Source: Acidimicrobiia bacterium
Lineage (GTDB): Bacteria; Actinomycetota; Acidimicrobiia; Acidimicrobiales; VFJN01
Reading direction: 5' to 3'
DNA length: 40,745 bases
Assembly: GCA_009694375.1 (NCBI GenBank)
Contig: SHVB01000021.1
Span: 1-40,745 of the forward strand
The notes under the pieces are model-generated. The model was not told the DNA's origin. It was given only the letters and a program-made list of their open reading frames with translations, and did no database searches. This document shows, piece by piece, positions 203 through 23,953 of the stretch (positions are counted from its first letter, which is position 1; each line of letters opens with the position of its first letter). A program made the position numbers and the translations under genes.

Positions 203-1336
203 CTACCGCGGAGCGTGGGTGACCTGTTGGAACAGGGCGACTTCGGCGGGGTCGTAGGGGCGCCCATCGGCGTGGAGGAGGTCGTGGAACCAGACGTCGA
301 CATCGGGTTTAGGGCGGATCCACGAGGTCCAGGGGAAGCGGGTCTGTGTGCGCCCGTCGACGAGGCCCCAACTGAAGGCTCCGACCTGGTGCTCGGCGAA
401 CACCTTCAGCAGGTCGGCAGTGGAGCCCAGAGAGCGCCCGAGCCACTCGGTGCACAGCAGTGGACGCCCGTAGGCGCTGAGGTGATCGATCGCCTGCTCG
501 AGCCGACGTTTCGGGCTGTAGCTATGGAACGAGATCACGTCGGAGCGGCTGAGCATCATCCGGTTGAGCGCACTGACCCGTTCGGTCGATCCGCTCGCCC
601 CGAGGTAGACGCCGGCGGTGAGGGGCTGGGCCGGGTCGGCCGCCTGGGCCCAGTCGAAGACCTGATCGAGGAGGCGGTGCACCCGCTTCGACTTCTTCGA
701 CACCTCCTCGTGCGGGTAGGAGATGGCGTTCGACTGGTCGGGCTCGTTGAAGAGGTCCCAGACGACCACCCGGTCGTCCTGGCCGAATCGGGTGAGCACC
801 GCGTCGACGTAGGGATGCAGGGCCGGCCACCGTTGGTCGTCGGCGAGGACGGCTGCGCCCGGTCCCTGCACCCAGATGGCGTTGTGGCGACCAGGTGCCG
901 GTTCGCGTTGCGGGCCGAGGCGGGGTCGCGGGTCCCACACCCCGTCGAAGAGAACGGGCATCGTCGCGATGCCGTGGCTGTCGGCGATGGCCAAGTACTC
1001 GTCGACCCGGTCGAGGAACCGGTCGCCTTCGTGCTGCCACAGCAGGTCGTGCAAGAAGACGCGCACGCTGTTCATGCCGAGGGCCGCGGCCCAGGCCAGC
1101 TCACGGTCGATCGTCTTGGGGTCGAACGTCTCCGGCTGCCACATCTCGAGCTGGTTCCCGGCGGACGAGGGTACGAAGTTGCACCCCACCAGCCAGCCCG
1201 TGCTGTCGCTCCAGGCCGTGGCGGTGTCGGTGGACCAGCGGGCGGTCGAGCGCACCGGCGGTGACCAGCGGCGCGGGACGGCGCCGCGGCTGAGTGATGC
1301 GGCGTAACGCACGAGCGAGCCAAGACGGGTGGGCAT
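203..1336 (-). CDS. Glycoside hydrolase, clan A TIM barrel (cellulase/GH5-like)
   Basis: A 377-residue protein with the layout of a clan-A retaining glycosidase. WDLFNEPD near residue 193 supplies the acid/base Glu (about E198), and LLCTEWLGRS near 293 supplies the nucleophile Glu (about E297) at the end of a later strand. Other barrel strands are visible, such as NSVRVFLHD near 89 and MPVLFDGVW near 126. No convincing signal peptide is present, so export is doubtful. The ATG at 1336 shares its last base with the TGA of the upstream P450 gene (TGATG), which indicates translational coupling. A longer reading upstream lies inside the P450 and was not used. The substrate cannot be told from sequence; beta-linked glucan, mannan or a glycoside are options. 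Confidence 0.8.
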   Translation of the reverse strand: MPTRLGSLVRYAASLSRGAVPRRWSPPVRSTARWSTDTATAWSDSTGWLVGCNFVPSSAGNQLEMWQPETFDPKTIDRELAWAAALGMNSVRVFLHDLLWQHEGDRFLDRVDEYLAIADSHGIATMPVLFDGVWDPRPRLGPQREPAPGRHNAIWVQGPGAAVLADDQRWPALHPYVDAVLTRFGQDDRVVVWDLFNEPDQSNAISYPHEEVSKKSKRVHRLLDQVFDWAQAADPAQPLTAGVYLGASGSTERVSALNRMMLSRSDVISFHSYSPKRRLEQAIDHLSAYGRPLLCTEWLGRSLGSTADLLKVFAEHQVGAFSWGLVDGRTQTRFPWTSWIRPKPDVDVWFHDLLHADGRPYDPAEVALFQQVTHAPR

Positions 1337-2544
1337 CAGGTCCTCCAGGTGACATCGAGCGTGCGCGGGCCGCGCAGCACGGTCCCGGTGGGTGCGGCGG
1401 CTTCGGGCTCGGTGAGGGTCAGCTCGGGGAGCCGGTCGAGCAGGCGTTGCACGGCCATTGCGATCTGCGCCTTGGCGAGGTGCGACCCGGGGCAGTGGTG
1501 GCTGCCGAGGCCGAAGGTCAGGGCTCGGGTTGGATTGCGGCCGATGTCGAACTCGTCGGGCCGTTCGTGCACGTCGGGATCGCGGTTGGCCGAGGCGATG
1601 CCGAACAGCAGCATCGTTCCTGCGGGCACGTCGAAACCGGCGACCTCGACATCGTGAGGGACGAGGCGGGGGAGCAGCGCCAGCGGTGGTTCCCAGCGCA
1701 GCATCTCGTCGATCGCCGCACCGACGAGGCTGTGGTCGTTGCGCAACGCGTCCACCGCAGCGGGATGGGTGAGCAGCGCGTAGAGCGTGTTGCCGAGGCC
1801 GTGGTAGGTCGTCGTCGCCCCGGCCGAGAACAGAGCGAGGACGTGGCTGCGGATCTCGGGGTCGGTGAGTGTGCGGCCGGAACGCGCGGCAGTGCACATC
1901 GACGAGAGCAGATCGTCGGTTGCCACCTCCCGCCGCGCCCGCAGGACCGGCTCCAGGTACTCGGTCAGCTCGGCCGCCGCCACGAGGCCCGGTTCAGGTG
2001 CGATCGGATAGCTGAGGATGTCGAACGCCCACCCCATGAAGCGGTCGGCGGCGTCGAAGGGCAGGCCCATGCGGTCGGCGAACACGAGGAATGGGAACAC
2101 CGAGGTGAACGCCTCGACGAGGTCGGCCCGACCACGGTCGACGAACCGGTCGATCACCGCGTCGCAGAGCGGAGCGAGCCCATCCTGTTCGTATCGCTCC
2201 ACCGGTCGGCGCCGCAGTCCGCGTGTGGTGAGGTCGCGCAGGGCGTGATGCTCCGGGCCGTCGAGGCTCTCGAAGGTGACCCCCTGGCAGGGCTCGACGG
2301 TCATGGCGTAGGTCGGGCCGGCCGGCAGTCTCTCGTCGTCGCGGAAGCACGCTTCGAGATCGGCGAAGCGCGTCACGAGCTGCATGGGGATCCCGCCGAA
2401 GTCGACGAGGGCGAGACGGTGGGCACTTCGGAGTCGGGCCAGCTCCCGGTGCAGGGCGGCGCCGGGCAGCCGGACATCGCCGGGGCCGAGATCGAGACCG
2501 AAATCGACGTCGCTCACTGGCGTGGTCGAGAGCGCGGCGGGCAT
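1336..2544 (-). CDS. Cytochrome P450
   Basis: A 402-residue soluble bacterial class I P450 that should use a ferredoxin/reductase pair. The I-helix oxygen-activation motif is AGATTT (about 241-246), the ExxR pair is EMLR (about 280-283), and the heme loop FGLGSHHCPG places the axial Cys at about 351. The size is normal for the family. The start at 2544 gives a typical short N-terminus before the first helix; an upstream in-frame extension is Arg/Pro-rich and unlikely. The gene heads a minus-strand unit with the glycoside hydrolase and diverges from the DinB-like gene across about 147 bases. No ferredoxin gene is nearby and the substrate is unknown. Confidence 0.93.
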   Translation of the reverse strand: MPAALSTTPVSDVDFGLDLGPGDVRLPGAALHRELARLRSAHRLALVDFGGIPMQLVTRFADLEACFRDDERLPAGPTYAMTVEPCQGVTFESLDGPEHHALRDLTTRGLRRRPVERYEQDGLAPLCDAVIDRFVDRGRADLVEAFTSVFPFLVFADRMGLPFDAADRFMGWAFDILSYPIAPEPGLVAAAELTEYLEPVLRARREVATDDLLSSMCTAARSGRTLTDPEIRSHVLALFSAGATTTYHGLGNTLYALLTHPAAVDALRNDHSLVGAAIDEMLRWEPPLALLPRLVPHDVEVAGFDVPAGTMLLFGIASANRDPDVHERPDEFDIGRNPTRALTFGLGSHHCPGSHLAKAQIAMAVQRLLDRLPELTLTEPEAAAPTGTVLRGPRTLDVTWRT

Positions 2545-2691
2545 CGGCTCACCGTACCCGCCTCGTGTCGACGGCGGCCGCCAGCGCCGCCGTCTCCCGT
2601 TGGCTGCGTGGCACGCTCCGCTGACCGGCGTTTCGGGGCAGGGGTCGAGTCGAAGACCTGGACGCTCTTGGCCGTCGTAGGGTCCTCGGTC

Positions 2692-3321
2692 ATGGACATG
2701 AGGGAGAGGACCTTCAAGGCTCGCCAATCGTTGATCGCCACGTTTGAGGAGATAGAGGGCGATCGGTGGGAGGTCGAGTCACTCTGTGGCGGGTGGACGG
2801 TCCGACACGTCCTCGCGCATCTGATCCTCGCCGCCCGTCCGCCGGTGAGGAGATACGTGCGGGCGGTGCTGAAGGCGCGAGGCAGGTTTGACCAGGCGAA
2901 TCATCTGCTGGCGGTCGACGATGGTTGTCGTCCAACGGCCGAACTGCTGTCCCAGTACCGAAAGGTAGCGGACCACTGGTTCGCACGGCCGGGATGGCCC
3001 GAGGCGGCACCTTTCAGCGACGTGCTCTTGCACAGTCTCGACGTGCGTATCCCGCTCGACGTCAAGGTGACAGTGCCGCCCGATGACTACGAGCCAGTGC
3101 TCCGGTTGTTATTCAGGCGAGTTGGCCGTTCTTTCACCAGTCCGGGCCGACCGGCGATCCGATGGGCTGCAACGGACCACGGTTGGTCGCACGGTGATGA
3201 GGGGCTGGAGGTCCGGGGAACGATGGAGAACCTGGCGCTGACGGCTGCTGGACGTCGGGCGCGCATCGCCGAGCTCGATGGTGACGGTGTTGTAGCACTC
3301 GAAGCCTGGAGTCATCAGTAG
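2692..3321 (+). CDS. DinB-like / mycothiol-dependent maleylpyruvate isomerase-type protein
   Basis: A 209-residue protein of the DinB four-helix fold as found in actinobacterial mycothiol-dependent enzymes. The opening reads ...SLIATFEEIEGDRWEVESLCGGWTVRHVLAHLI, the classic pattern of helix 1, then S-L-C-x-G-W-x-V-[RK]-[HD]-[VL]-x-A-H-[LI] with the first metal-type His. A later LLHSLDVRIPL segment supplies the second part of the site. Family members are thiol S-transferases or isomerases that use mycothiol; the reaction here is not predictable. ATG 2692 was chosen; an in-frame ATG at 2698 is also possible. MshC encoded at 35.5 kb is consistent with a mycothiol-making host. Confidence 0.75.
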   Translation: MDMRERTFKARQSLIATFEEIEGDRWEVESLCGGWTVRHVLAHLILAARPPVRRYVRAVLKARGRFDQANHLLAVDDGCRPTAELLSQYRKVADHWFARPGWPEAAPFSDVLLHSLDVRIPLDVKVTVPPDDYEPVLRLLFRRVGRSFTSPGRPAIRWAATDHGWSHGDEGLEVRGTMENLALTAAGRRARIAELDGDGVVALEAWSHQ

Positions 3322-3340
3322 GCACTGCCCCACAAGTGCC
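3321..3340 (+). terminator. Weak hairpin after the DinB-like gene
   Basis: GGCACT and AGTGCC form a 6-bp stem with an 8-base loop directly after the stop codon. There is no T-run, so this is only a candidate terminator. Confidence 0.3.
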
Positions 3341-3435
3341 GATCGGGGGCATCGCAGACTTGCCCCGGGTTGATCAGGCCCGTGTTGGGGAGCCCGGCGC
3401 CACCGTGGCCGGAACGGCTCAGGTGGACGATGGCC

Positions 3436-3677
3436 ACCGTTGCGGCGGACACGTATCGGCCCGCCTGCCCGCCGGAACGCACCGGTAAGGGTCCCAGCGT
3501 CGACATCGAACCGGACCGCGACCGCCTTTAGCGACTCGCCCGCCTTGTAGTGCTTCGCCCCATCGCGAACCGAACGGTTCGTCATCTTCCGGATGACCTT
3601 GCGGCCTTCGATGCCGCTACCCCGGGCCACTTCGAGCACCTCGGCCGGCGGCTTCGTCGCCTCCCGTGGGTGAATCG
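3436..3677 (-). pseudogene. Remnant of a recombinase/transposase-type HTH domain
   Basis: The minus strand encodes a short HTH-like stretch: VRDGAKHYKAGESLKAVAVRF followed by DVDAGTLTGAFRRAG and GPIRVRRNG. This matches the spacing of the C-terminal helix-turn-helix of actinobacterial serine recombinases and related transposases ([YL]-x-A-G-x-S-L-x-x-[IV]-A-x-x-[FL]-x-V-x-x-x-T[LV]...LRRAG-PIR). Nothing resembling a catalytic domain precedes it: the frame closes at a TGA about 12 codons upstream of the GTG at 3639. Downstream of RRNG the reading turns into low-complexity sequence. It is best read as the tail of a lost mobile element in an otherwise geneless 357-base gap. Assignment to a particular recombinase family is inference. 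Confidence 0.5.
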
Positions 3678-3678
3678 A

Positions 3679-5370
3679 TCAGAGGCATGGGTCGAGGGTA
3701 CGAAGGATCGAATGGACCACCGTTGATCCTTCACCCACGGCATTGGCGACCCGCTTGACTGAATGTGAGCGCACATCTCCCACGGCGAATACGCTTGGTA
3801 GCGAGGTTTCGTACGGCAACGGATCGAAATCGCCGAAGAGGCCACCATCGATTGGATTCGCCGGCAGGTCACCGGCGGTGAGGGCGAAGCCCTTGGCATC
3901 CAGCGCCACGGCGCCGCACAGCCATTCGGTGGCCGGGACGGCACCGATGAAACAGAACACGGCGCGGCACGGCAGCGTTTCGCGTTCACCGGTGATGGTG
4001 TTCTCGACGACGACCGACTCGACTGCGTCGACGCCAGTGATGACGCGGACCTCCGTGCCGCTCATGACGCGGATGCGCGGGTGGCTTTCGATCCGGGTCA
4101 CGAGATACTGCGACATGGTTTCAGGCAGGTTCGGGCGTCGCGCCAGAACGGTCACGGCCGCGCAGTTCTGGGCCAGCGCCAGGGCGGCCTGGCCCGCTGA
4201 GTCGCCGCCGCCCACCACGATCACGGATTGGGCCGCACAGAGACGGGTTTCGATTTTGCTGGTGGAGTAGTAGACCCCGGCACCTTCGAATCGGGCCAAG
4301 TCCTCCACGTCGAGCCGCCGATAGCGTGCGCCCGATGCAATCACCACGGTGCGGCTGGCGATTTCGGTGCCGTCTTCGAGTTGGATCACCCGGTGTTCAT
4401 CCGCCACCCGTAGACCGACGACCTTGCTGGGGCTCGTGAGGCGGGCGCCGAGGCGCTGGGCTTGCAGGGCGGCGGAGGTGGTGAGCTCCTTGCCGGAAAT
4501 GCCGTTGGGGAACCCGAGATAGTTCTCGATGCGCGAACTTGCGGCCGCCTGTCCACCAACGGCGACGGCTTCGAGACAGACCACGTCGAGGCCCTCCGAC
4601 ACCGCCACGATGGCCGCCGCCAGGCCGGCTGGGCCGAGGCCCACGATGACAACGTCGTGGACATCGTTGAGAGCGGGGCCATGGTCGAGGCCGAGAGAAT
4701 GAGCGAACTCGACGGTGGTGGGCTGGTCGAGCCGAGACGCGGGCGTGATGACCACGGGAACAGCAGCCGGGTCTATTCCCAACCGAGCGAGGAAGCCGAT
4801 GGGGTCGGCGTGACTATCGAGATCGATCCACTGGAAGGGCACATACGATCGCGAGGCAAACACCCGCAGCGCCATCGCCTCCGGTGAGAAGCCGCTTCCG
4901 ACGATCACCACATTGGCGGTGCCGGAGCCGCGATGCAGCCTCGATCTGCGCAGCATGAACTCATCGAACACCAGGTCGGCCAGTTCCGGTGTGGCGCGCA
5001 AGAAATCGGTTAATACAGGCAAGGGGATGACGAGTACCGAGCCCGCTTCGGTGACCACGGCGCTGACGAAGGGGCGCTGGCCCACCAGCAGGTTGAGCTC
5101 GCCGAGAAACTGCCCGGCAATGTGAGTGGTGATGATGGACGGTCCGTCGAGGCCAGCGCCGACGATGTCGACCTTTCCAGCGAGCACCACAACGAACGAC
5201 TGGGTGGCGTCCCCCGCGGCAAAAATCATTTCCCCGACGAGAGTGGGGTGCACCGTTCCCAAGGGCATAAGGGCCGCAATGTCATCGGGGTTGAGGAGGA
5301 TGTAGTTGTCGAGCGATCGCTTATGGGGTTCCCGCACCGGGCTCACAACCCAACGGTACTCCACGGCCAT
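3679..5370 (-). CDS. cNMP-binding-domain / thioredoxin-reductase-like FAD oxidoreductase lacking the CxxC
   Basis: A 563-residue three-part protein. Residues about 25-140 form a cyclic-nucleotide-binding beta barrel (GQFLGELNLLVGQRPFVSAVV region). Residues about 150-230 look like a thioredoxin-like domain without a redox pair. From about 238 there is a thioredoxin-reductase-like flavoprotein with GLGPAG for FAD, GGQAAASSRIENYLGFP, GGGDSAG for NADPH, and a C-terminal VFAVGDVR motif. Where true thioredoxin reductases carry CATC, this protein has YYSTSK (about 367-372), so it cannot do classical disulfide relay. This architecture is known in actinobacteria and proteobacteria but its electron acceptor is unclear. 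No obvious Shine-Dalgarno precedes 5370; a GTG about nine codons in is an alternative start. Confidence 0.85.
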   Translation of the reverse strand: MAVEYRWVVSPVREPHKRSLDNYILLNPDDIAALMPLGTVHPTLVGEMIFAAGDATQSFVVVLAGKVDIVGAGLDGPSIITTHIAGQFLGELNLLVGQRPFVSAVVTEAGSVLVIPLPVLTDFLRATPELADLVFDEFMLRRSRLHRGSGTANVVIVGSGFSPEAMALRVFASRSYVPFQWIDLDSHADPIGFLARLGIDPAAVPVVITPASRLDQPTTVEFAHSLGLDHGPALNDVHDVVIVGLGPAGLAAAIVAVSEGLDVVCLEAVAVGGQAAASSRIENYLGFPNGISGKELTTSAALQAQRLGARLTSPSKVVGLRVADEHRVIQLEDGTEIASRTVVIASGARYRRLDVEDLARFEGAGVYYSTSKIETRLCAAQSVIVVGGGDSAGQAALALAQNCAAVTVLARRPNLPETMSQYLVTRIESHPRIRVMSGTEVRVITGVDAVESVVVENTITGERETLPCRAVFCFIGAVPATEWLCGAVALDAKGFALTAGDLPANPIDGGLFGDFDPLPYETSLPSVFAVGDVRSHSVKRVANAVGEGSTVVHSILRTLDPCL

Positions 5371-5428
5371 TGCTGGGATCCCTAGGGCGACGCGCCTCAG
5401 ATGGCAGGCGCCAGATCGGTGGGTGCCC

Positions 5429-5644
5429 CTACCTTTCGGCTATCCGACCTTTGCCTAAGAACGACTCGTAAGCCTCGGGATCGATGATGTTAGAGAATCC
5501 GCTCTTACGCTCGAAGATGAGGCGGGGCGTGTCACCGTTGGTGTCAAACAGACGGAGTACGTCGAACGGGCGAGATTCCGCCAGGCCGCCACCACCACCC
5601 ACTCGATTCTGATCGTGCACGCATCCCCCGCAGCCTGACCGCAC
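5429..5644 (-). CDS. Small hypothetical protein (uncertain)
   Basis: A possible 71-residue protein starting at GTG 5644, with a later GTG (VHDQNRV) as an alternative. The first 25 residues are Gly-rich and poor, but the rest (RPFDVLRLFDTNGDTP, LIFERKSGFSNIIDPEAYES, FLGKGRIAER) has a natural mix of hydrophobic and charged residues. It lies 24 bases downstream of the pentapeptide-repeat gene and upstream of the flavoprotein gene on the same strand. No family is recognised. It could also be a gene remnant. Confidence 0.35.
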   Translation of the reverse strand: MRSGCGGCVHDQNRVGGGGGLAESRPFDVLRLFDTNGDTPRLIFERKSGFSNIIDPEAYESFLGKGRIAER

Positions 5645-5668
5645 CGGCCCGGGGGGCCGCGAGACGCC

Positions 5669-6142
5669 TTACTGCGCTGGCGGGGGTGTGTTTCGCACGA
5701 CGCCGTCGGGGCACGTCGTATTCGACCACCGCAAATCGCTGAGGTCGGCCCGACGCAGGTAGGCATCGGTGAGGTTGGCACCGCTGAGGTCGGCTCCGGC
5801 CATTTCGGCGTATTTCAGGTTGGCCCGGCGCAGGTTGGCGCCGCTGAGGTTGGCGTCGGTCAGGTTGGCGTAACGCAGGTTGGCGTCGGTCAGGTTGGCG
5901 TCGGTCAGGTTGGCACCGCTGAGGTCGGCGTCGAGCAAGTCGGCGCCGGTTAGGTGCGCCAGCGTGAGGTCGGCTCCGCTGAGGTCGGCGTAGCGCAGAT
6001 TGGCGCCGCTGAGGTCGCTACCGCTGAGGGAAGCGCCGGTGAGAGCAGCACCGGTGAGTCGGGCGTTGTGTAGATCCGCTCCCGACAGTCCGGCGCGAGG
6101 GCGCCTCGACCAGATACTACCTCGACGCCCCTGATCGCTCAT
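5669..6142 (-). CDS. Pentapeptide-repeat protein
   Basis: A 157-residue protein made almost entirely of about two dozen A(D/N)LxX pentapeptides (residues about 17-138), ending in a short tail with NTTCPDGVV. Such repeats fold as a right-handed quadrilateral beta helix. There is no signal peptide or membrane segment, so it is probably cytoplasmic. The ATG at 6142 follows a GGGGGGTGAC Shine-Dalgarno. Some family members (MfpA, Qnr) mimic DNA and bind gyrase, but nothing here proves that role. The 15-base periodicity is visible in the DNA as repeated gtcggcgccgctgag-like units. Confidence 0.9.
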   Translation of the reverse strand: MSDQGRRGSIWSRRPRAGLSGADLHNARLTGAALTGASLSGSDLSGANLRYADLSGADLTLAHLTGADLLDADLSGANLTDANLTDANLRYANLTDANLSGANLRRANLKYAEMAGADLSGANLTDAYLRRADLSDLRWSNTTCPDGVVRNTPPPAQ

Positions 6143-6358
6143 GTCACCCCCCGCCGTCGTGCGTGTACCGCAAGGTTATGTCAACGTCGAGCGTCTCGTT
6201 GTGACCCGGCGCGTGGCGGATCAGATGGACGCGCCGAAGACGCTGCGACACGGGGCGCGGAGGGCGGCCAGCGGCCAGAAATGGCGACGGTGGAGCTCCA
6301 TCGCCTATCGAGAACCGGCGCCATCGCGGCCCTCAAACGCCTCGGCCCGGCACCCGGC
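6143..6358. other. Intergenic gap between minus-strand genes
   Basis: Between the APH-type kinase stop and the pentapeptide-repeat start. It must contain the pentapeptide gene promoter. A TTGACA hexamer is present on the minus strand (6179-6184), but no convincing -10 lies at the right spacing. Nothing else is recognised. Confidence 0.4.
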
Positions 6359-15514: not shown

Positions 15515-15991
15515 ATGCCTGAGTTTCCTATCGACATCGGCATTGCCGAAGACGACCGCCTAGCGATCACGGAAGGGCTGTCGCGGCTGCTCGCCGATAC
15601 CTACACGCTGTATCTCAAGACCCATAACTACCACTGGAACGTGACCGGCCCGATGTTCCAAACGCTGCACCTCATGTTCGAGGGGCAGTACGTCGAACTT
15701 TCTCTGGCGGTAGATCTGATCGCGGAGCGCATCCGTTCTTTGGGGGTGCCCGCCCCCGCCAGTTACCAAGCATTTATCCGCCTGTCGTCAATTTCCGAGG
15801 ACGAGGATCACCCAATTGCCACCGAGATGATCACCCGTCTGGTAGCCGATCATGAAGCCATTACCCGCACGGCCCGATCGGTGTTTCCGCGAGTGGAAGA
15901 AGCGCAGGACGAAGTGACCGCCGATCTGTTGACACAGCGGTTGCAGGTGCACGAGAAGACCGCCTGGATGCTCCGTAGCCTTCTGGCCTAA
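15515..15991 (+). CDS. dps: Dps-family ferritin-like protein
   Basis: A 158-residue Dps: [34 protein letters not shown] is the helix A/B region with the dinuclear ferroxidase ligands (His of HNYHW, His of LHLMFE, Glu), and [11 protein letters not shown] follows. Dps forms a 12-subunit shell that oxidises iron with peroxide and can coat DNA. Neither terminus carries a clear Lys-rich DNA-binding tail, so ferroxidase protection may dominate. ATG 15515 has only a weak purine-rich leader (GAAGTAGAGAA). Confidence 0.92.
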
Positions 15992-16020: not shown

Positions 16021-16464
16021 ATGGTGGGACCGCTGGTTCATCCATCGACGCCCCTGAGGTTGCTTGTGTCCAGCCCCTATTTCACCAGTGAAGGTCAGGT
16101 GCCCGTGGAGCGGCGGGGTGAGTTGTTCTCGTGGCGGACGCTGCTCAGTGCCGACCGCACCCCCACCGAGGGCATCACGATGGGCACCGCCGAGATCCCG
16201 CCGGCTGCTCCCACCGCCGGTGCCCGCCATCGCCACCCCGTGGCCGAGGTGTACTACATCACCTCCGGCACCGGTCTTGTGCACATCGATGATCAAGCCC
16301 ATGCCGTGGAGGCGGGAACCGCCCTGTTCATACCGAGCAACGCGTGGCACTACGTGACGAACGTAGGCACTGACCCGCTGCGGGTGCTGTACGTCTTTCC
16401 CGTCGACAGTTTCGACGACGTGGTGTACGAGTACGCCGAACGCACCGAGGGGCCCGACACCTGA
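16021..16464 (+). CDS. Cupin-domain protein
   Basis: A 147-residue single-domain cupin. Motif 1 is HRHPVAEVYYITSGTG (HxH then E, about residues 74-89) and motif 2 is PSNAWHYVTNVGTDPLRVLYVF with the fourth ligand His. Together these bind one metal ion inside a beta barrel. Such proteins serve as sugar isomerases, dioxygenases or lyases, or just sense small ligands, and I cannot choose among them. The ATG at 16021 lies 29 bases after the Dps stop, with GAGAGG just before it. The gene converges on the FKBP remnant, 11 bases from its stop. Confidence 0.8.
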   Translation: MVGPLVHPSTPLRLLVSSPYFTSEGQVPVERRGELFSWRTLLSADRTPTEGITMGTAEIPPAAPTAGARHRHPVAEVYYITSGTGLVHIDDQAHAVEAGTALFIPSNAWHYVTNVGTDPLRVLYVFPVDSFDDVVYEYAERTEGPDT

Positions 16465-16475
16465 CGGTCGTCAGA

Positions 16476-16896
16476 TCAGAAGGCTTCGAGGATGTCCACT
16501 ACGAAGATGAGGGTGGCCCCGCCGGTATTTTCCCCTGGCCGGCATCCCCGTAGGCGTCCACCGCCGGAATCACGAGAAGCAACTGAGACCCCACGGTCTG
16601 ACCCACCAACGCCTTGTCCCAACCGGGGATCACCTCGCCGGACCCGACGACGAAAGTAAAGGGCTCCGATCGGTCCCAGGAGGAGTGGAACACCGAGCCG
16701 TCGGTGTACAAGGCACCGGTGTAATGGACGGTTACCGATTGGCCTTCCTCCACCTTCGCTCCGGTACCCGTGATGAGAGGTTGCACCACTAGCGCCGGCA
16801 CCGCGGCGCCATCGCCGAGGGCAATGGTGGGGGCGCCGGTATCGCTCAAGGTGACGGTGGGTGCCGGGTCTGGGCGACGCCGGCGACTTGCTTTAC
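16476..16896 (-). pseudogene. C-terminal FKBP peptidyl-prolyl isomerase domain, leaderless and frameshifted
   Basis: The minus strand encodes a full FKBP core: EEGQSVTVHYTGALY, GSVFHSSWDRSEPFTF, GEVIPGWDKALVGQTVGSQL and LLVIPAVDAYGDAG, including the active-site Tyr, Phe and Trp. At 16532-16535 the run of four C (G on the coding strand) makes the frame end early at 16499. With one more G the frame would continue GENTGGATLIFVVDILEAF to a TGA at 16476, the exact FKBP ending. There is no signal peptide or ribosome site upstream: the frame runs back into AT-richer sequence after about 16896. It is probably the second domain of the FKBP lipoprotein encoded at 18022-18528, now cut off. A sequencing error in the G-run is possible. 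Confidence 0.75.
16876..16896. repeat. Left copy of the split direct repeat
   Basis: GACGCCGGCGACT is followed directly by TGCTTTAC. The same two blocks occur at 17946-18001, there separated by 35 bases. The copy marks the junction between the FKBP remnant and the AT-richer insert. Confidence 0.5.
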
Positions 16897-17066
16897 GGCG
16901 AGAAAATGTAGTTGCTGGTTGTCTCGTAGTTTTTCGTCCTGCAGGTTTGGTCAAAAGGACTCATCAGTACAAATACACTATTTGTAGAAACTACTGGAAA
17001 ACTTACTGGGGTGTCTGTGCGGTGCACAGGCGACCTTTTCGGTTGTTCCCAGTGTTGTGGGGAGCT

Positions 17067-17086
17067 CGTACTCACAAGTGAGTACG
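17067..17086. repeat. Perfect 9+2+9 palindrome
   Basis: CGTACTCAC-aa-GTGAGTACG. The size and symmetry suit a dimeric regulator site, recombination core or cruciform-forming element. Its role is unknown. Confidence 0.5.
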
Positions 17087-17134
17087 GGTTGCAAACCAAA
17101 TGGTTCTAGCTCGACCCCACCGTCTTTGTTTGGA

Positions 17135-17150
17135 TCAGTCATAAGACTGA
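17135..17150. repeat. Palindrome TCAGTC-ataa-GACTGA
   Basis: A 6+4+6 perfect inverted repeat. It is related in sequence to the ACTCAGT/ACTGAGT hairpin about 30 bases further along, so the two may be parts of one element. Confidence 0.4.
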
Positions 17151-17182
17151 CTTGAAAGATACCAAACTACCTTGTTTTGACA

Positions 17183-17205
17183 GACTCAGTGAAAACCAGA
17201 CTGAG
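17183..17205 (-). terminator. Hairpin downstream of the small membrane-protein gene
   Basis: ACTCAGT and ACTGAGT form a 7-bp stem with a 9-base loop, about 15-40 bases after the stop of the 53-residue gene on the minus strand. It is a candidate terminator without a clear T-run. Confidence 0.35.
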
Positions 17206-17220
17206 TGGGTTAGCTGCAGG

Positions 17221-17382
17221 TCACGGACCGATGGCCCACGCCAGCATGGTGATGATCACCAAGGCAGCGAGGATGACTCCGAGGCTGATTGCGACGAACC
17301 GGCGAAACCATGGTGGTCCGAAGATCACCAACACCAGTACGACAACCGCAATCAGGATACTCAGCACATCTTCTGCTGTCAC
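17221..17382 (-). CDS. 53-residue membrane protein in the inserted cassette
   Basis: The product has two hydrophobic helices (about 6-21 and 28-51) around a GPPWFRRF turn. The GTG start overlaps the stop of the lipoprotein gene by four bases (GTGA), the normal sign of translational coupling. The family is unknown. Because it shares an operon with a lipoprotein, it could anchor or export that partner, but this is only an inference. Its codon use is like that of the host, unlike the AT-richer flank downstream. Confidence 0.6.
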   Translation of the reverse strand: MTAEDVLSILIAVVVLVLVIFGPPWFRRFVAISLGVILAALVIITMLAWAIGP

Positions 17383-17993
17383 GTCATCACCACGCCACAG
17401 GCGTACAGCCCGCCGACGGTCCACCCCTTCCCGAGGTACACCCCTCCGGAGAGAGCTGCCGCGCACTCGAGCTCGTTGACCGTGCGGTCCAGGAACTTCT
17501 TCCCTTCTGCGACGTAGTTGTACCCGCTGGTGGTGTCGAACGGGATGGTGTAGATGGTGACCATGTAGTCGCAGAACCAGGTATTGTTCGGCGACTGCCA
17601 GGCACATCCCTCGAACGTCTTGTCGTCCTCCATCACGAGCGTTGCGCCCCTGCTGGAACTCGACGTACCGACGATCGAGACGATGCCGTTGTCGCTGAGG
17701 TCGCCCTTGCCTCCCGGATCCACGAACCAGTTGCCCGGATCGTTTGCTCCTTCGACACCATCGATGCTGCGGCAGACGTAGCCCGAGCCGTCAGAGAAGC
17801 CAGAGTACAGGGTCACCGTGCAGGAGGTGATGTTGACACTCTCCAGCGGGATACCGGCGTACCAGTCGTTGGCGAACGTCTTGCCGGGGTCGTGGTTGAC
17901 CTTCTAGTAGTTGTAGCAACCCGAGGTCACGATGACCAGGGCGAGGACGCCGGCGACTGCAATGAGTCGACGGAAACGCTTGGGTGAATGCAT
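17379..17993 (-). pseudogene. Secreted Cys-rich lipoprotein gene interrupted by an in-frame amber codon
   Basis: ATG 17993, with GAGG eight bases upstream, opens a good lipoprotein leader: MHSPKRFRRLIAVAG, a hydrophobic core, then VTSGC. Four codons after the Cys codon a TAG (17904-17906) stops the frame, which then continues open for 174 codons to 17379. The mature part (NITSCTVTLYSGFSDG, GYVCRSIDG, FEGCAWQSPNNTWFCDYM, LECAAALSG, YACGVVMT) has regularly placed Cys and reads as a disulfide-stabilised extracytoplasmic domain. I do not recognise the family. The frame would be normal apart from one base, so this is a recent nonsense mutation, a base error, or a recoded stop. Confidence 0.65.
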
Positions 17994-18001
17994 TGCTTTA
18001 C
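17946..18001. repeat. Right copy of the split direct repeat
   Basis: GACGCCGGCGACT (17946-17958) and TGCTTTAC (17994-18001) match the contiguous 21 bases at 16876-16896, with 35 bases between the blocks here. The repeat covers the leader region of the lipoprotein gene. Confidence 0.45.
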
Positions 18002-18021
18002 CTCACAGTTTCGTGCACCCG

Positions 18022-18528
18022 TCAAGGCGACCCGGGCGAGGGGCGGCGAAGGTCGGCGGAAAGAATCTCGGCCAGGAACAGCAGGGTGTCGTCATCGGTT
18101 ACGCCGCTCTCGAAGCCTTTCGCCCCGAAACTGTCGGCGGGGGCGATGGCTACGAGCACCTCAGTTCCCACCTTCTGACCCTTCAGGCCAGTGGCGATGC
18201 CGGGCATGATGTCTTCGGAAAGTTTGAGGGAGGCGGGAGCGCCCTCGTAGGAGGTGCCCAGCACCTTCCCGTCGGTCCCATTCACCACGACGAAGTTGAA
18301 CGTGATGGTGTCCTCCGGGGTAATGGCTCGGCCTTCCCCTTCTTTGATCACCCGAACCGTGGTTTTTTCCACCGAGAGGGGTAGGTCGAACTCGAGTTCG
18401 GGCTGGGGGCCATCGGTCTGGATGATCTTTACGGAATCCAGGGGCGACGCCAGCTGGTCCTTGCCGCAGGCGCTGAGACCTGCGACGAGCGCCATAACAG
18501 CGATGAGTGAGACGAGAACTCGGCGCAC
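18022..18528 (-). CDS. FKBP-fold lipoprotein, N-terminal degenerate domain
   Basis: A 168-residue lipoprotein. The leader MRRVLVSLIAVMALVAG ends in LSAC with the lipidated Cys at 21. The rest is an FKBP-like domain (ITPEDTITFNFVVV, VLGTSYEGAPASLKL, MPGIATGLKGQKVGTEVLVAI, LLFLAEILSADL). The Trp that floors the isomerase pocket (IPGW in active FKBPs) is Ile here (MPGI), so the domain is probably inactive. In many actinobacteria this degenerate domain is the first half of a two-domain lipoprotein whose second half is the active isomerase. That second half lies 1.1 kb downstream as a remnant. The last residues (RRPSPGSP) may be sequence created at the break. Confidence 0.8.
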   Translation of the reverse strand: MRRVLVSLIAVMALVAGLSACGKDQLASPLDSVKIIQTDGPQPELEFDLPLSVEKTTVRVIKEGEGRAITPEDTITFNFVVVNGTDGKVLGTSYEGAPASLKLSEDIMPGIATGLKGQKVGTEVLVAIAPADSFGAKGFESGVTDDDTLLFLAEILSADLRRPSPGSP

Positions 18529-18603
18529 GATAAAATCCTTGTTGTCGAAGAGGAGATAACGGCCTGACAGACGGCGTCCGGATTGTCTCGGCGCCGCCGA
18601 TTG

Positions 18604-19086
18604 CTACGAAAGCGTCTTGTTGAGGCGGGTGAGGGCGGTGTCCTCGGAGATGTTGAGGGCGAAGGCCAATTCGCTGACCAGGACCTGGCGGGCCTTCACA
18701 AACATGGATTTCTCGCCGGCCGAGAGGCCTTTGTCGGCGTCCCGGAGGGCGAGGTTACGCACGACCTCGGCCACCTGGTACACGTCGCCCGATTTCAGTT
18801 TCTCCTGGTGGTTCTTGAATCGGCGTGACCAGTTGGTGGGCTCGCGCACGTCTTTCTTGGCCAGGACCTGGAACACGTCTTCCACGTCTTCCTTGGAAAT
18901 CGGATACCGCATCCCAATCTCCTCGGCGCGGTCCGCTGGCACCTTCAGCAGAAGATCCCCGTGGGTCATGCGCAGCACGAAGTACTTCGTCTTGCCGCCC
19001 TCGAGGAGGTTGATGGTGTCGGTTCCCTCGATGATTGCGGCCCCGTGATGGGGATAGACGACCTTGTCTCCGACCTTGAAGGGCAC
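18604..19086 (-). CDS. carD: CarD-family RNA polymerase-binding transcription regulator
   Basis: A 160-residue protein, the normal length for CarD. The Tudor-like RNAP-interaction domain starts at FKVGDKVVYPHHGAAIIEG, with YFVLRM and LLLKVPADRAEEIGMR following. The helical C-terminal DNA-contact domain holds NWSRRFKNHQEKLKSGDVYQVAEVVRNL, with the Trp that wedges at the upstream edge of the open complex. GTG 19086 has GCAGGAG at good spacing. CarD stabilises open promoter complexes, mainly at rRNA and housekeeping promoters. Upstream in-frame extension to 19326 is Arg-rich and lies in the promoter region. Confidence 0.95.
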   Translation of the reverse strand: MPFKVGDKVVYPHHGAAIIEGTDTINLLEGGKTKYFVLRMTHGDLLLKVPADRAEEIGMRYPISKEDVEDVFQVLAKKDVREPTNWSRRFKNHQEKLKSGDVYQVAEVVRNLALRDADKGLSAGEKSMFVKARQVLVSELAFALNISEDTALTRLNKTLS

Positions 19087-23097: not shown

Positions 23098-23164
23098 CGC
23101 CCCGACGGTAATCGGCCACCCACCGCCGCACCGCCGGTTCCTGGCGCTAGGGTGATCGTTACGA

Positions 23165-23262
23165 AGGGGAGCTCGGAGTAGCCGGGCTGAGAGGGTGGTC
23201 TTGCCGGCAACGGTCTGCCACCGACCCGTGGCACCTGAACCGGGTAATGCCGGCGGAGGGAT
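23165..23262 (+). promoter_or_regulatory. TPP (thi-box) riboswitch
   Basis: The leader contains the conserved thi-box core: GGAG-CTCGG-agtag-CCGGG-CTGAGAG at 23171-23193 and ACCTGAACCGGGTAATGCCG plus GCGGAGGGA at 23233-23261. These are the pyrimidine- and pyrophosphate-sensing halves of the aptamer, with a GGTGG/CCACC stem between. The GGAGGG that would serve thiN lies at the 3' end of the aptamer, so ligand binding can cover it, which fits translational repression by thiamine pyrophosphate. The downstream genes are all thiamine genes, which supports the call. Confidence 0.93.
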
Positions 23263-23269
23263 TCGGACA

Positions 23270-23953
23270 ATGGCAGCACTCGAGAGCGGCAACCTTGTGA
23301 TCGTGGTGACCGGAGGAGACCCGGTGGATCCGGCGCACCTGCCCCAATGGCCGGCGGGAGCACTCGTGATCGCCGCCGATTCGGGGATCGACCGGGCCCT
23401 CGAACTCGGGCTGTCGGTGGACGTGGCTATTGGAGATTTTGACTCCGTGCGGCCGGGATCGCTGCGGAGGGTCACCAGCGATGGCGCCACCGTGGAGCAG
23501 CACCCGGCGGCGAAAGACGCCACCGATCTCGAACTCGCCATCGACGCGGCGCTTCGCTACGAGCCGTCCCAGGTGCTGGTCATCGGGGGGCACGGCGGAC
23601 GCCTTGACCACCTGCTCGCCAACGCCATGCTGCTTGCGGCTCCGGCCTACGCCACGCTGTCCATGGTGGCCCAGATGGGCGCGGCGCGGGTCACGGTCAT
23701 TCGTGACCACGCGAGATTGACCGGCCCCGTGGGTGATCTCGTGACCCTGCTGGCGCTCCACGGCGGAGCCAGTGGGATCCGTACCGAGGGTCTGCTCTAT
23801 CCCCTCCGCGATGAGGCCCTGCTGCCCGGCTCCACCCGGGGCGTGAGCAATGAACTCATCAGCGGCACTGCTTCGGTGCGCATCGCCACGGGGGTGGTGG
23901 TGGCCATACAACCCGGACAGATCGGCACCCACCACCAGATGGCTCCCTCATGA
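23270..23953 (+). CDS. thiN: Thiamine pyrophosphokinase
   Basis: A 227-residue enzyme that makes thiamine diphosphate from thiamine and ATP. Family marks are VIAADSGIDRALELGLSVDV, AIGDFDSV (the metal-binding Asp pair), AAKDATDLELAI and GGHGGRLDHLLAN in the N-terminal domain, then a beta-rich thiamine-binding domain (LYPLRDEALLPGSTRGVSNEL). ATG 23270 follows GGAGGG of the riboswitch. Its stop overlaps the start of thiB (ATGA). Being first in the operon, it traps imported thiamine as the coenzyme. Confidence 0.93.
   Translation: MAALESGNLVIVVTGGDPVDPAHLPQWPAGALVIAADSGIDRALELGLSVDVAIGDFDSVRPGSLRRVTSDGATVEQHPAAKDATDLELAIDAALRYEPSQVLVIGGHGGRLDHLLANAMLLAAPAYATLSMVAQMGAARVTVIRDHARLTGPVGDLVTLLALHGGASGIRTEGLLYPLRDEALLPGSTRGVSNELISGTASVRIATGVVVAIQPGQIGTHHQMAPS

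Follow-up and report, generated by a model that had tools for sequence, protein, structure and literature searches.

A two-domain FKBP lipoprotein gene of an Acidimicrobiia bacterium probably split by a degraded insertion with a predicted type III hammerhead ribozyme

In the draft genome of an Acidimicrobiia bacterium (Acidimicrobiales, VFJN01; assembly GCA_009694375.1), the gene for a two-domain FKBP lipoprotein appears to have been interrupted by ~1.1 kb of other DNA, and this DNA carries, just ahead of the C-terminal half of the gene, a sequence with the core and helices of a type III hammerhead ribozyme. Our analysis covered a stretch of 40,745 nucleotides (contig SHVB01000021.1, positions 1 to 40,745), which we refer to as the window, and all positions below are those of the window. 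The locus is best read as a degraded insertion, the RNA of which would undergo self-cleavage ahead of a dead C-terminal FKBP half, with both cleavage and mobility standing as predictions. We put the probability that the gene was split by an insertion, and that the hammerhead sequence in it is able to cut, at roughly 70%, a figure that overlaps with the one we assign to the rival view of the hammerhead as an idle leftover.

On the minus strand, the order of genes is carD, the N-terminal half of the FKBP lipoprotein gene (N-half), the interrupting DNA, and the C-terminal half (C-half), toward which a cupin gene converges. The upstream neighbor is an open frame at 18604-19083 (minus strand) whose product we take to be carD-like. 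It is conserved, with 99% identity to its counterpart in genome G003 and 95% in genome G002 (159 aa), both of the same genus. The cupin gene (16021-16464, plus strand) is also a conserved neighbor, as the same convergent gene is found in G003, and a Dps-like frame near it (15515-15991, plus strand) scored below the NCBIfam cut-offs. The N-half (18022-18528, minus strand) is an ORF of 168 aa that encodes a lipoprotein leader, with a lipobox recognized by eye, a degenerate FKBP domain (Pfam FKBP_C, 38.7 bits, E = 1.3e-9), and a short new tail at its end. The C-half (16476-16887, minus strand) matches FKBP_C at 83.2 bits (E = 1.7e-23) in the frame around 16887-16499, the match spanning positions 4-83 of the 94 in the profile, and a one-base deletion relative to G003, at ~16527-16521, costs it its last strand. 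The C-half presumably retains the residues of the FKBP pocket, most of which appear to be replaced in the N-half.

These observations agree, coordinates included, with the first-pass annotation of this DNA, which had described two FKBP pieces ~1.1 kb apart on the minus strand: an N piece with a leader and a degenerate domain, and a frameshifted C piece with neither a leader nor a ribosome site. The N-half would still yield a short lipoprotein, the degenerate FKBP domain of which is probably non-catalytic. The C-half lacks a leader and, by eye, a ribosome site; it is a predicted pseudogene, and the organism has probably lost an exported FKBP foldase.

A protein search with the N-half covered 41 genomes (the organism's own and 40 relatives), of which 29, the own genome included, gave a match. 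In G003, a single ORF of 353 aa, the sequence of which is also in a public record (L176), is collinear with both halves in the same order and orientation, with carD upstream and the convergent cupin gene downstream; the N-half is 75% identical to the corresponding part of the G003 protein. The whole two-domain gene is also present in G002 (323 aa), where one extra lipoprotein-like frame separates it from carD, and in a more distant genome (JAIUOP010000002.1, or L177), where it occupies one frame of 317 aa, the best segment of which is 50% identical. The third genome of the same genus, G001, is uninformative here, as its contig stops within carD. The locus shares with the two-domain FKBP lipoproteins of related actinobacteria the order of leader, degenerate domain, linker, and catalytic-type domain, and the linker has the pattern RPL.RAEG.AV in both G003 and G002. 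It differs in that the gene, which is one frame in G003, G002, and L177, is interrupted in this genome. Chance is excluded by this comparison, as both halves are collinear with one G003 ORF that has the same carD and cupin neighbors. Most simply, the whole gene looks to be the older state and the split looks derived, since the gene is uninterrupted between the same neighbors in G003 and whole in G002 and L177.

Based on a comparison by eye with the uninterrupted G003 linker, we placed the insert within the interdomain linker at 16887-18030 (minus strand). Its junctions are inexact, the left one lying between 18031 and 18001 and the right one between 16896 and 16876. Host-like linker DNA reaches ~18031 on the left and resumes at ~16887-16876 on the right, with small indels (seen by eye) that shift the frame on both sides. 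A 9-base direct repeat, GTAAAGCAA, is located at the junctions, with its left copy at 17993-18001 and its right copy at 16888-16896 (both minus strand); the 29 nt from the end of the host-like linker to the left copy have no evident match in G003. The repeat is possibly a target-site duplication, but is only suggestive of one, because words that long were also shared by 357 of 20,000 pairs of 51-nt zones drawn at random from the window and by 107 of 20,000 shuffles of the two junction zones. A search for terminal inverted repeats between the two 60-nt ends of the insert gave a longest inverted word of 6 nt. The two ends also share a 13-base repeat, AGTCGCCGGCGTC, plus GTAAAGCA, which might reflect an origin of the insert by duplication. 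This pattern occurred in none of 300 shuffles, but also in 6 of 86 real windows (which overlap one another), and 14 of 300 shuffles aligned as well as or better than the two ends did when gaps were allowed. The integron core consensus is GTTRRRY. An integron gene cassette was considered and rejected, as the junction word GTAAAGC is without the GTT triplet and no attC-like partner half-site was seen upstream by eye.

The insert comprises three parts, all on the minus strand. A lipoprotein frame (17379-17993) with a GAGG word resembling a ribosome site (by eye) is overlapped by a frame with a GTG start for a small protein of 53 residues (17221-17382), which by eye is a membrane protein, and the last ~330 nt (16890-17220) are AT-rich and rich in hairpins. 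The GC content of this last part is 0.465, compared to 0.600 in the rest of the insert and 0.658 in the whole window. The region 16890-17225 folds more stably than most of its shuffles (z-score of -2.53; 1 of 100 as good), and a terminator scan of 16400-18700 returned no intrinsic terminator, where shuffles gave a mean of 2.1. The lipoprotein frame is host-like in its codon use, with a GC3 of 0.84 and a codon score of 0.241 that falls within the range of 15 genes of the window (0.182-0.341), whereas the other two frames of the region score -0.385 and -0.195. Its codon 30 is an in-frame stop (TAG, 17906-17904), four codons past the lipobox cysteine. Eleven protein queries covering listed frames on both strands of the insert, run against Pfam and PHROGs, found no transposase, integrase, or named phage family, and the 53-residue frame matched neither a Pfam nor a PHROG family at an E-value of 0.1 or below. 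Weak family matches of antisense frames (a KI67R repeat, E = 0.0082, and phrog_34627, E = 0.099) were set aside, being below the cut-off or of a function that is not known. The best explanation is that the insert brought in a small lipoprotein/membrane-protein operon. Given the nonsense codon in the lipoprotein frame, the insert appears to be decaying, and it is more likely to be a passenger than a mobile element that still works.

We looked for the source of the insert among relatives, phages, and plasmids. At E up to 0.001, the lipoprotein frame matched 2 of 198 genomes of the order, namely its own and G181, a weak and distant relative (38% identity over query residues 12-86), and at E up to 0.01 it matched 3 of 396 genomes of the phylum, its own and two weak ones. 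The distant matches in G181, G791, and G806 were set aside as too weak, and the lipoprotein family is nearly an orphan on this evidence. A scan that reaches close relatives only, of genome_contigs (30 pattern stretches) and viral_contigs (5), gave no confirmed relative of the frame, and tblastn revealed none in phages or plasmids. The AT-rich part had no match among phage records, and the whole insert none among plasmids. Across 298 genomes of the order, 111 of which gave something at E up to 1, the matches to the AT-rich part, apart from the copy in its own genome, were limited to fragments of 16-46 nt, the best of them at E = 0.0098.

The first-pass annotation had gone on to propose that the halves were once one lipoprotein and that a foreign-looking cassette had landed between them, and had named relatives with the same cassette as an argument against this. 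No such relative was seen: in G001-G003, nothing matches the lipoprotein frame, and the matches to the AT-rich part are fragments of 16-25 nt. The proposal as such is supported by the uninterrupted gene between carD and the cupin gene in G003 and the whole genes in G002 and L177. The label of foreign-looking applies mainly to 16890-17220, with its low GC content; judged by its codons, the greater part of the insert does not look foreign, although it is lower in GC (0.600) than the window as a whole.

We also considered the possibility that the structure is an error of assembly or consensus, with the insert being a misjoin, or the stop codon and the deletion being sequencing errors. In favor of this, the window makes up one of the 36 contigs of a draft assembly, and the ~2 kb in question contain one stop and one deletion. 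However, the words shared at the junctions are short (9 and 13 nt), the lipoprotein frame has the codon use of the host, and on the flanks the frames of carD, the cupin, and the acyl-CoA dehydrogenase are all open. Errors of this kind are judged to be very unlikely, and misassembly is improbable in view of the single occurrence, in the assembly, of both the AT-rich part and the lipoprotein frame.

The first-pass annotation did not contain the hammerhead motif, which is located at 16926-16994 (minus strand), 29 nt ahead of the right copy of the 9-base repeat and about 30-50 nt ahead of the C-half, with cleavage predicted between 16987 and 16986. The hammerhead consensus consists of CUGANGA and GAAA, together with U16.1 and a residue other than G at position 17 (H17) in the customary numbering. 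All core bases are present in the motif (CUGAUGA, GAAA, U16.1, and C17), and helices III, I, and II comprise 7, 8, and 5 pairs, respectively, with no mismatch and with stem III open, as in the type III topology. The motif matches the Rfam model RF00008 over its full length at 36.7 bits, with an E-value of 1e-5 when the region is searched and of 2.7e-6 when the genome is. This score does not reach the gathering score of 48.5, and the motif was absent from the default scan of the window. Like the type III members of RF00008, it has the full core, three helices, and an open stem III; it differs from them in its sub-cut-off score and in its loops, with 3 nt in loop I and 15 nt in loop II. The insert is thus considered to hold a complete type III hammerhead in sequence and predicted fold, a claim that is based on the core and helices and not on Rfam membership.

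Several searches indicate how unusual such a match is. A strict descriptor, which called for the core and for minimum lengths of 6 pairs in stem I, 4 in stem II, and 6 in stem III, found one site in the window, none in 82.75 Mb of whole-window shuffles, and none in 23.7 Mb obtained by shuffling the AT-rich part. With a looser descriptor, the whole-window shuffles gave three sites and those of the AT-rich part none. At E up to 10, the motif was the sole RF00008 match in its own genome (150 of 338 first-look candidates scored), and 8 of 14 well-known control genomes gave weak matches, none of them over the cut-off. At E up to 0.001, none of the 14 controls gave a match. Larger scans at E up to 0.001, run with stricter filters by which weak matches can be lost, returned 2 of 396 genomes of the phylum (its own and G568) and 1 of 296 of the class (its own). 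The G568 match was rejected, as its core is broken. The motif is rare among the sampled genomes of the class and is located between the halves of a lightly decayed gene. Since the intact form of that gene is known, it should be easy to test how the motif arrived and how it affects the transcript.

The unconstrained minimum free energy structure of the 69-nt motif contains all three helices (-12.1 kcal/mol), although the energy itself is ordinary (z-score of -1.08; equalled by 29 of 200 shuffles). With only 3 nt in loop I and 15 nt in loop II, the motif may lack the contact between loops by which cleavage is accelerated. When the longer AT-rich region is folded, the stem II strand pairs instead with an upstream CCTGCAG word, and so cutting might be conditional or poor.

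Perreault et al. (2011; PMC3088659) describe hundreds of hammerheads in bacteria, many of them beside integrase genes grouped with prophages, and call their functions unclear; types I, II, and III all occur in prokaryotes and phages, according to De la Pena et al. (2020; PMC7761336). As with the hammerheads of the 2011 study, ours is on a bacterial chromosome, in DNA that relatives lack. Unlike those near integrases, it is part of an insert that divides a chromosomal gene and in which no integrase or phage family was found. Among the papers searched, none combined Microthrix and hammerhead ribozyme.

A pattern scan of viral contigs gave at least 120 stretches with the same stem II core, and a mobile source of the hammerhead is plausible, as viral contigs hold many such sites. 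A stricter pattern for the whole motif found no viral contig, and a match to the stem I pattern in contig L208 was rejected as a plain hairpin without the GAAA half. We applied the descriptor to 176 sequences (the window plus loci), which were chosen by pattern, include near-duplicates, and are not independent, and among which type II would go undetected; it gave 160 matches, 143 of type I and 17 of type III. Five of the 17 are the motif of the insert itself (the window and four overlapping loci), so that the viral loci alone account for 155 matches, 143 of type I and 12 of type III. By eye, none of these 12 has the loops or flanks of the hammerhead in the insert. Three IMG/VR contigs contain series of type I hammerheads by descriptor: L091 has six within ~5 kb (1335-6201), five of them exact pattern matches, and L134 and L142 have nine and seven, each serial on one strand.

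The strongest rival agrees on the insertion and on the sequence, and disputes present activity only. It holds that the FKBP gene became a pseudogene through unrelated DNA, and that the hammerhead is an inactive or idle leftover, perhaps derived from a phage, with no present role. We rate this at slightly less than an even chance. Disabling changes are found in both the insert and the C-half, hammerhead cores are common in viral contigs, and the motif scores under the Rfam cut-off and has a competing fold. On the other hand, a core with every base in place and three intact helices would be unlikely after long decay, and a phage origin is at odds with the insert frames having no phage family (the best match, E = 0.099, is to a family of unknown function) and with there being no phage record that matches the lipoprotein frame or the AT-rich part.

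In the reading that we prefer, an ancestral two-domain FKBP lipoprotein gene would have been interrupted at its interdomain linker by ~1.1 kb of DNA, with the inserted genes in the same orientation. Transcripts that originate at carD or within the insert and run through the region would form the hammerhead and self-cleave 3′ of 16987. The upstream lipoprotein/membrane-protein message would be left with a defined 3′ end, and a separate RNA, starting at 16986 and carrying the C-half, would be released. One could go further and suppose that the AT-rich stretch, or the whole insert, is a bacterial mobile passenger whose own hammerhead frees it from host messages at its 3′ end. If true, this would be a gene-internal insertion insulated from downstream RNA, like a minimal prokaryotic retrozyme-like element, but we regard it as highly improbable. 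Compared to retrozymes, the hammerhead retrotransposons of plants and animals (De la Pena et al., 2020), the likeness is that of a small, AT-rich, hammerhead-bearing stretch of ~330 nt; the differences are a single hammerhead, a single copy, the lack of long terminal repeats, and the bacterial setting. Retrozymes have paired hammerheads in direct repeats, whereas this genome contains one motif in a single-copy stretch.

The degree of decay was estimated by pairwise comparison with G003, there being no outgroup close enough to place changes on a lineage. In the C-half, the dN/dS ratio was 0.14 over the 111 codons that precede the deletion (85% identical), compared to 0.41 for the N-half (158 codons), alongside 0.014 for carD (160 codons) and 0.063 for the acyl-CoA dehydrogenase (238 codons). 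The dS of the C-half (0.69 over 16476-16850) is about twice that of the other three gene pieces (0.32-0.39). The C-half seems only lightly decayed, and the break looks recent, because most of the divergence of the C-half arose under constraint.

The same low ratio and high identity might be taken to mean that the halves are now two working genes, with the C-half expressed as a cytoplasmic FKBP from a start within the insert, and its frame is indeed open back to a TTG at 16954. That TTG, however, lies inside the hammerhead, and the C-half has no ribosome site by eye, no leader, and, through the deletion, no last strand; in addition, the genome encodes a second FKBP with an intact frame of 128 aa elsewhere (G000:C8). 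We consider two working genes most improbable. At some distance from the FKBP locus, the window also contains a TPP riboswitch (23155-23279, plus strand), which scores 61.1 bits, above the Rfam cut-off.
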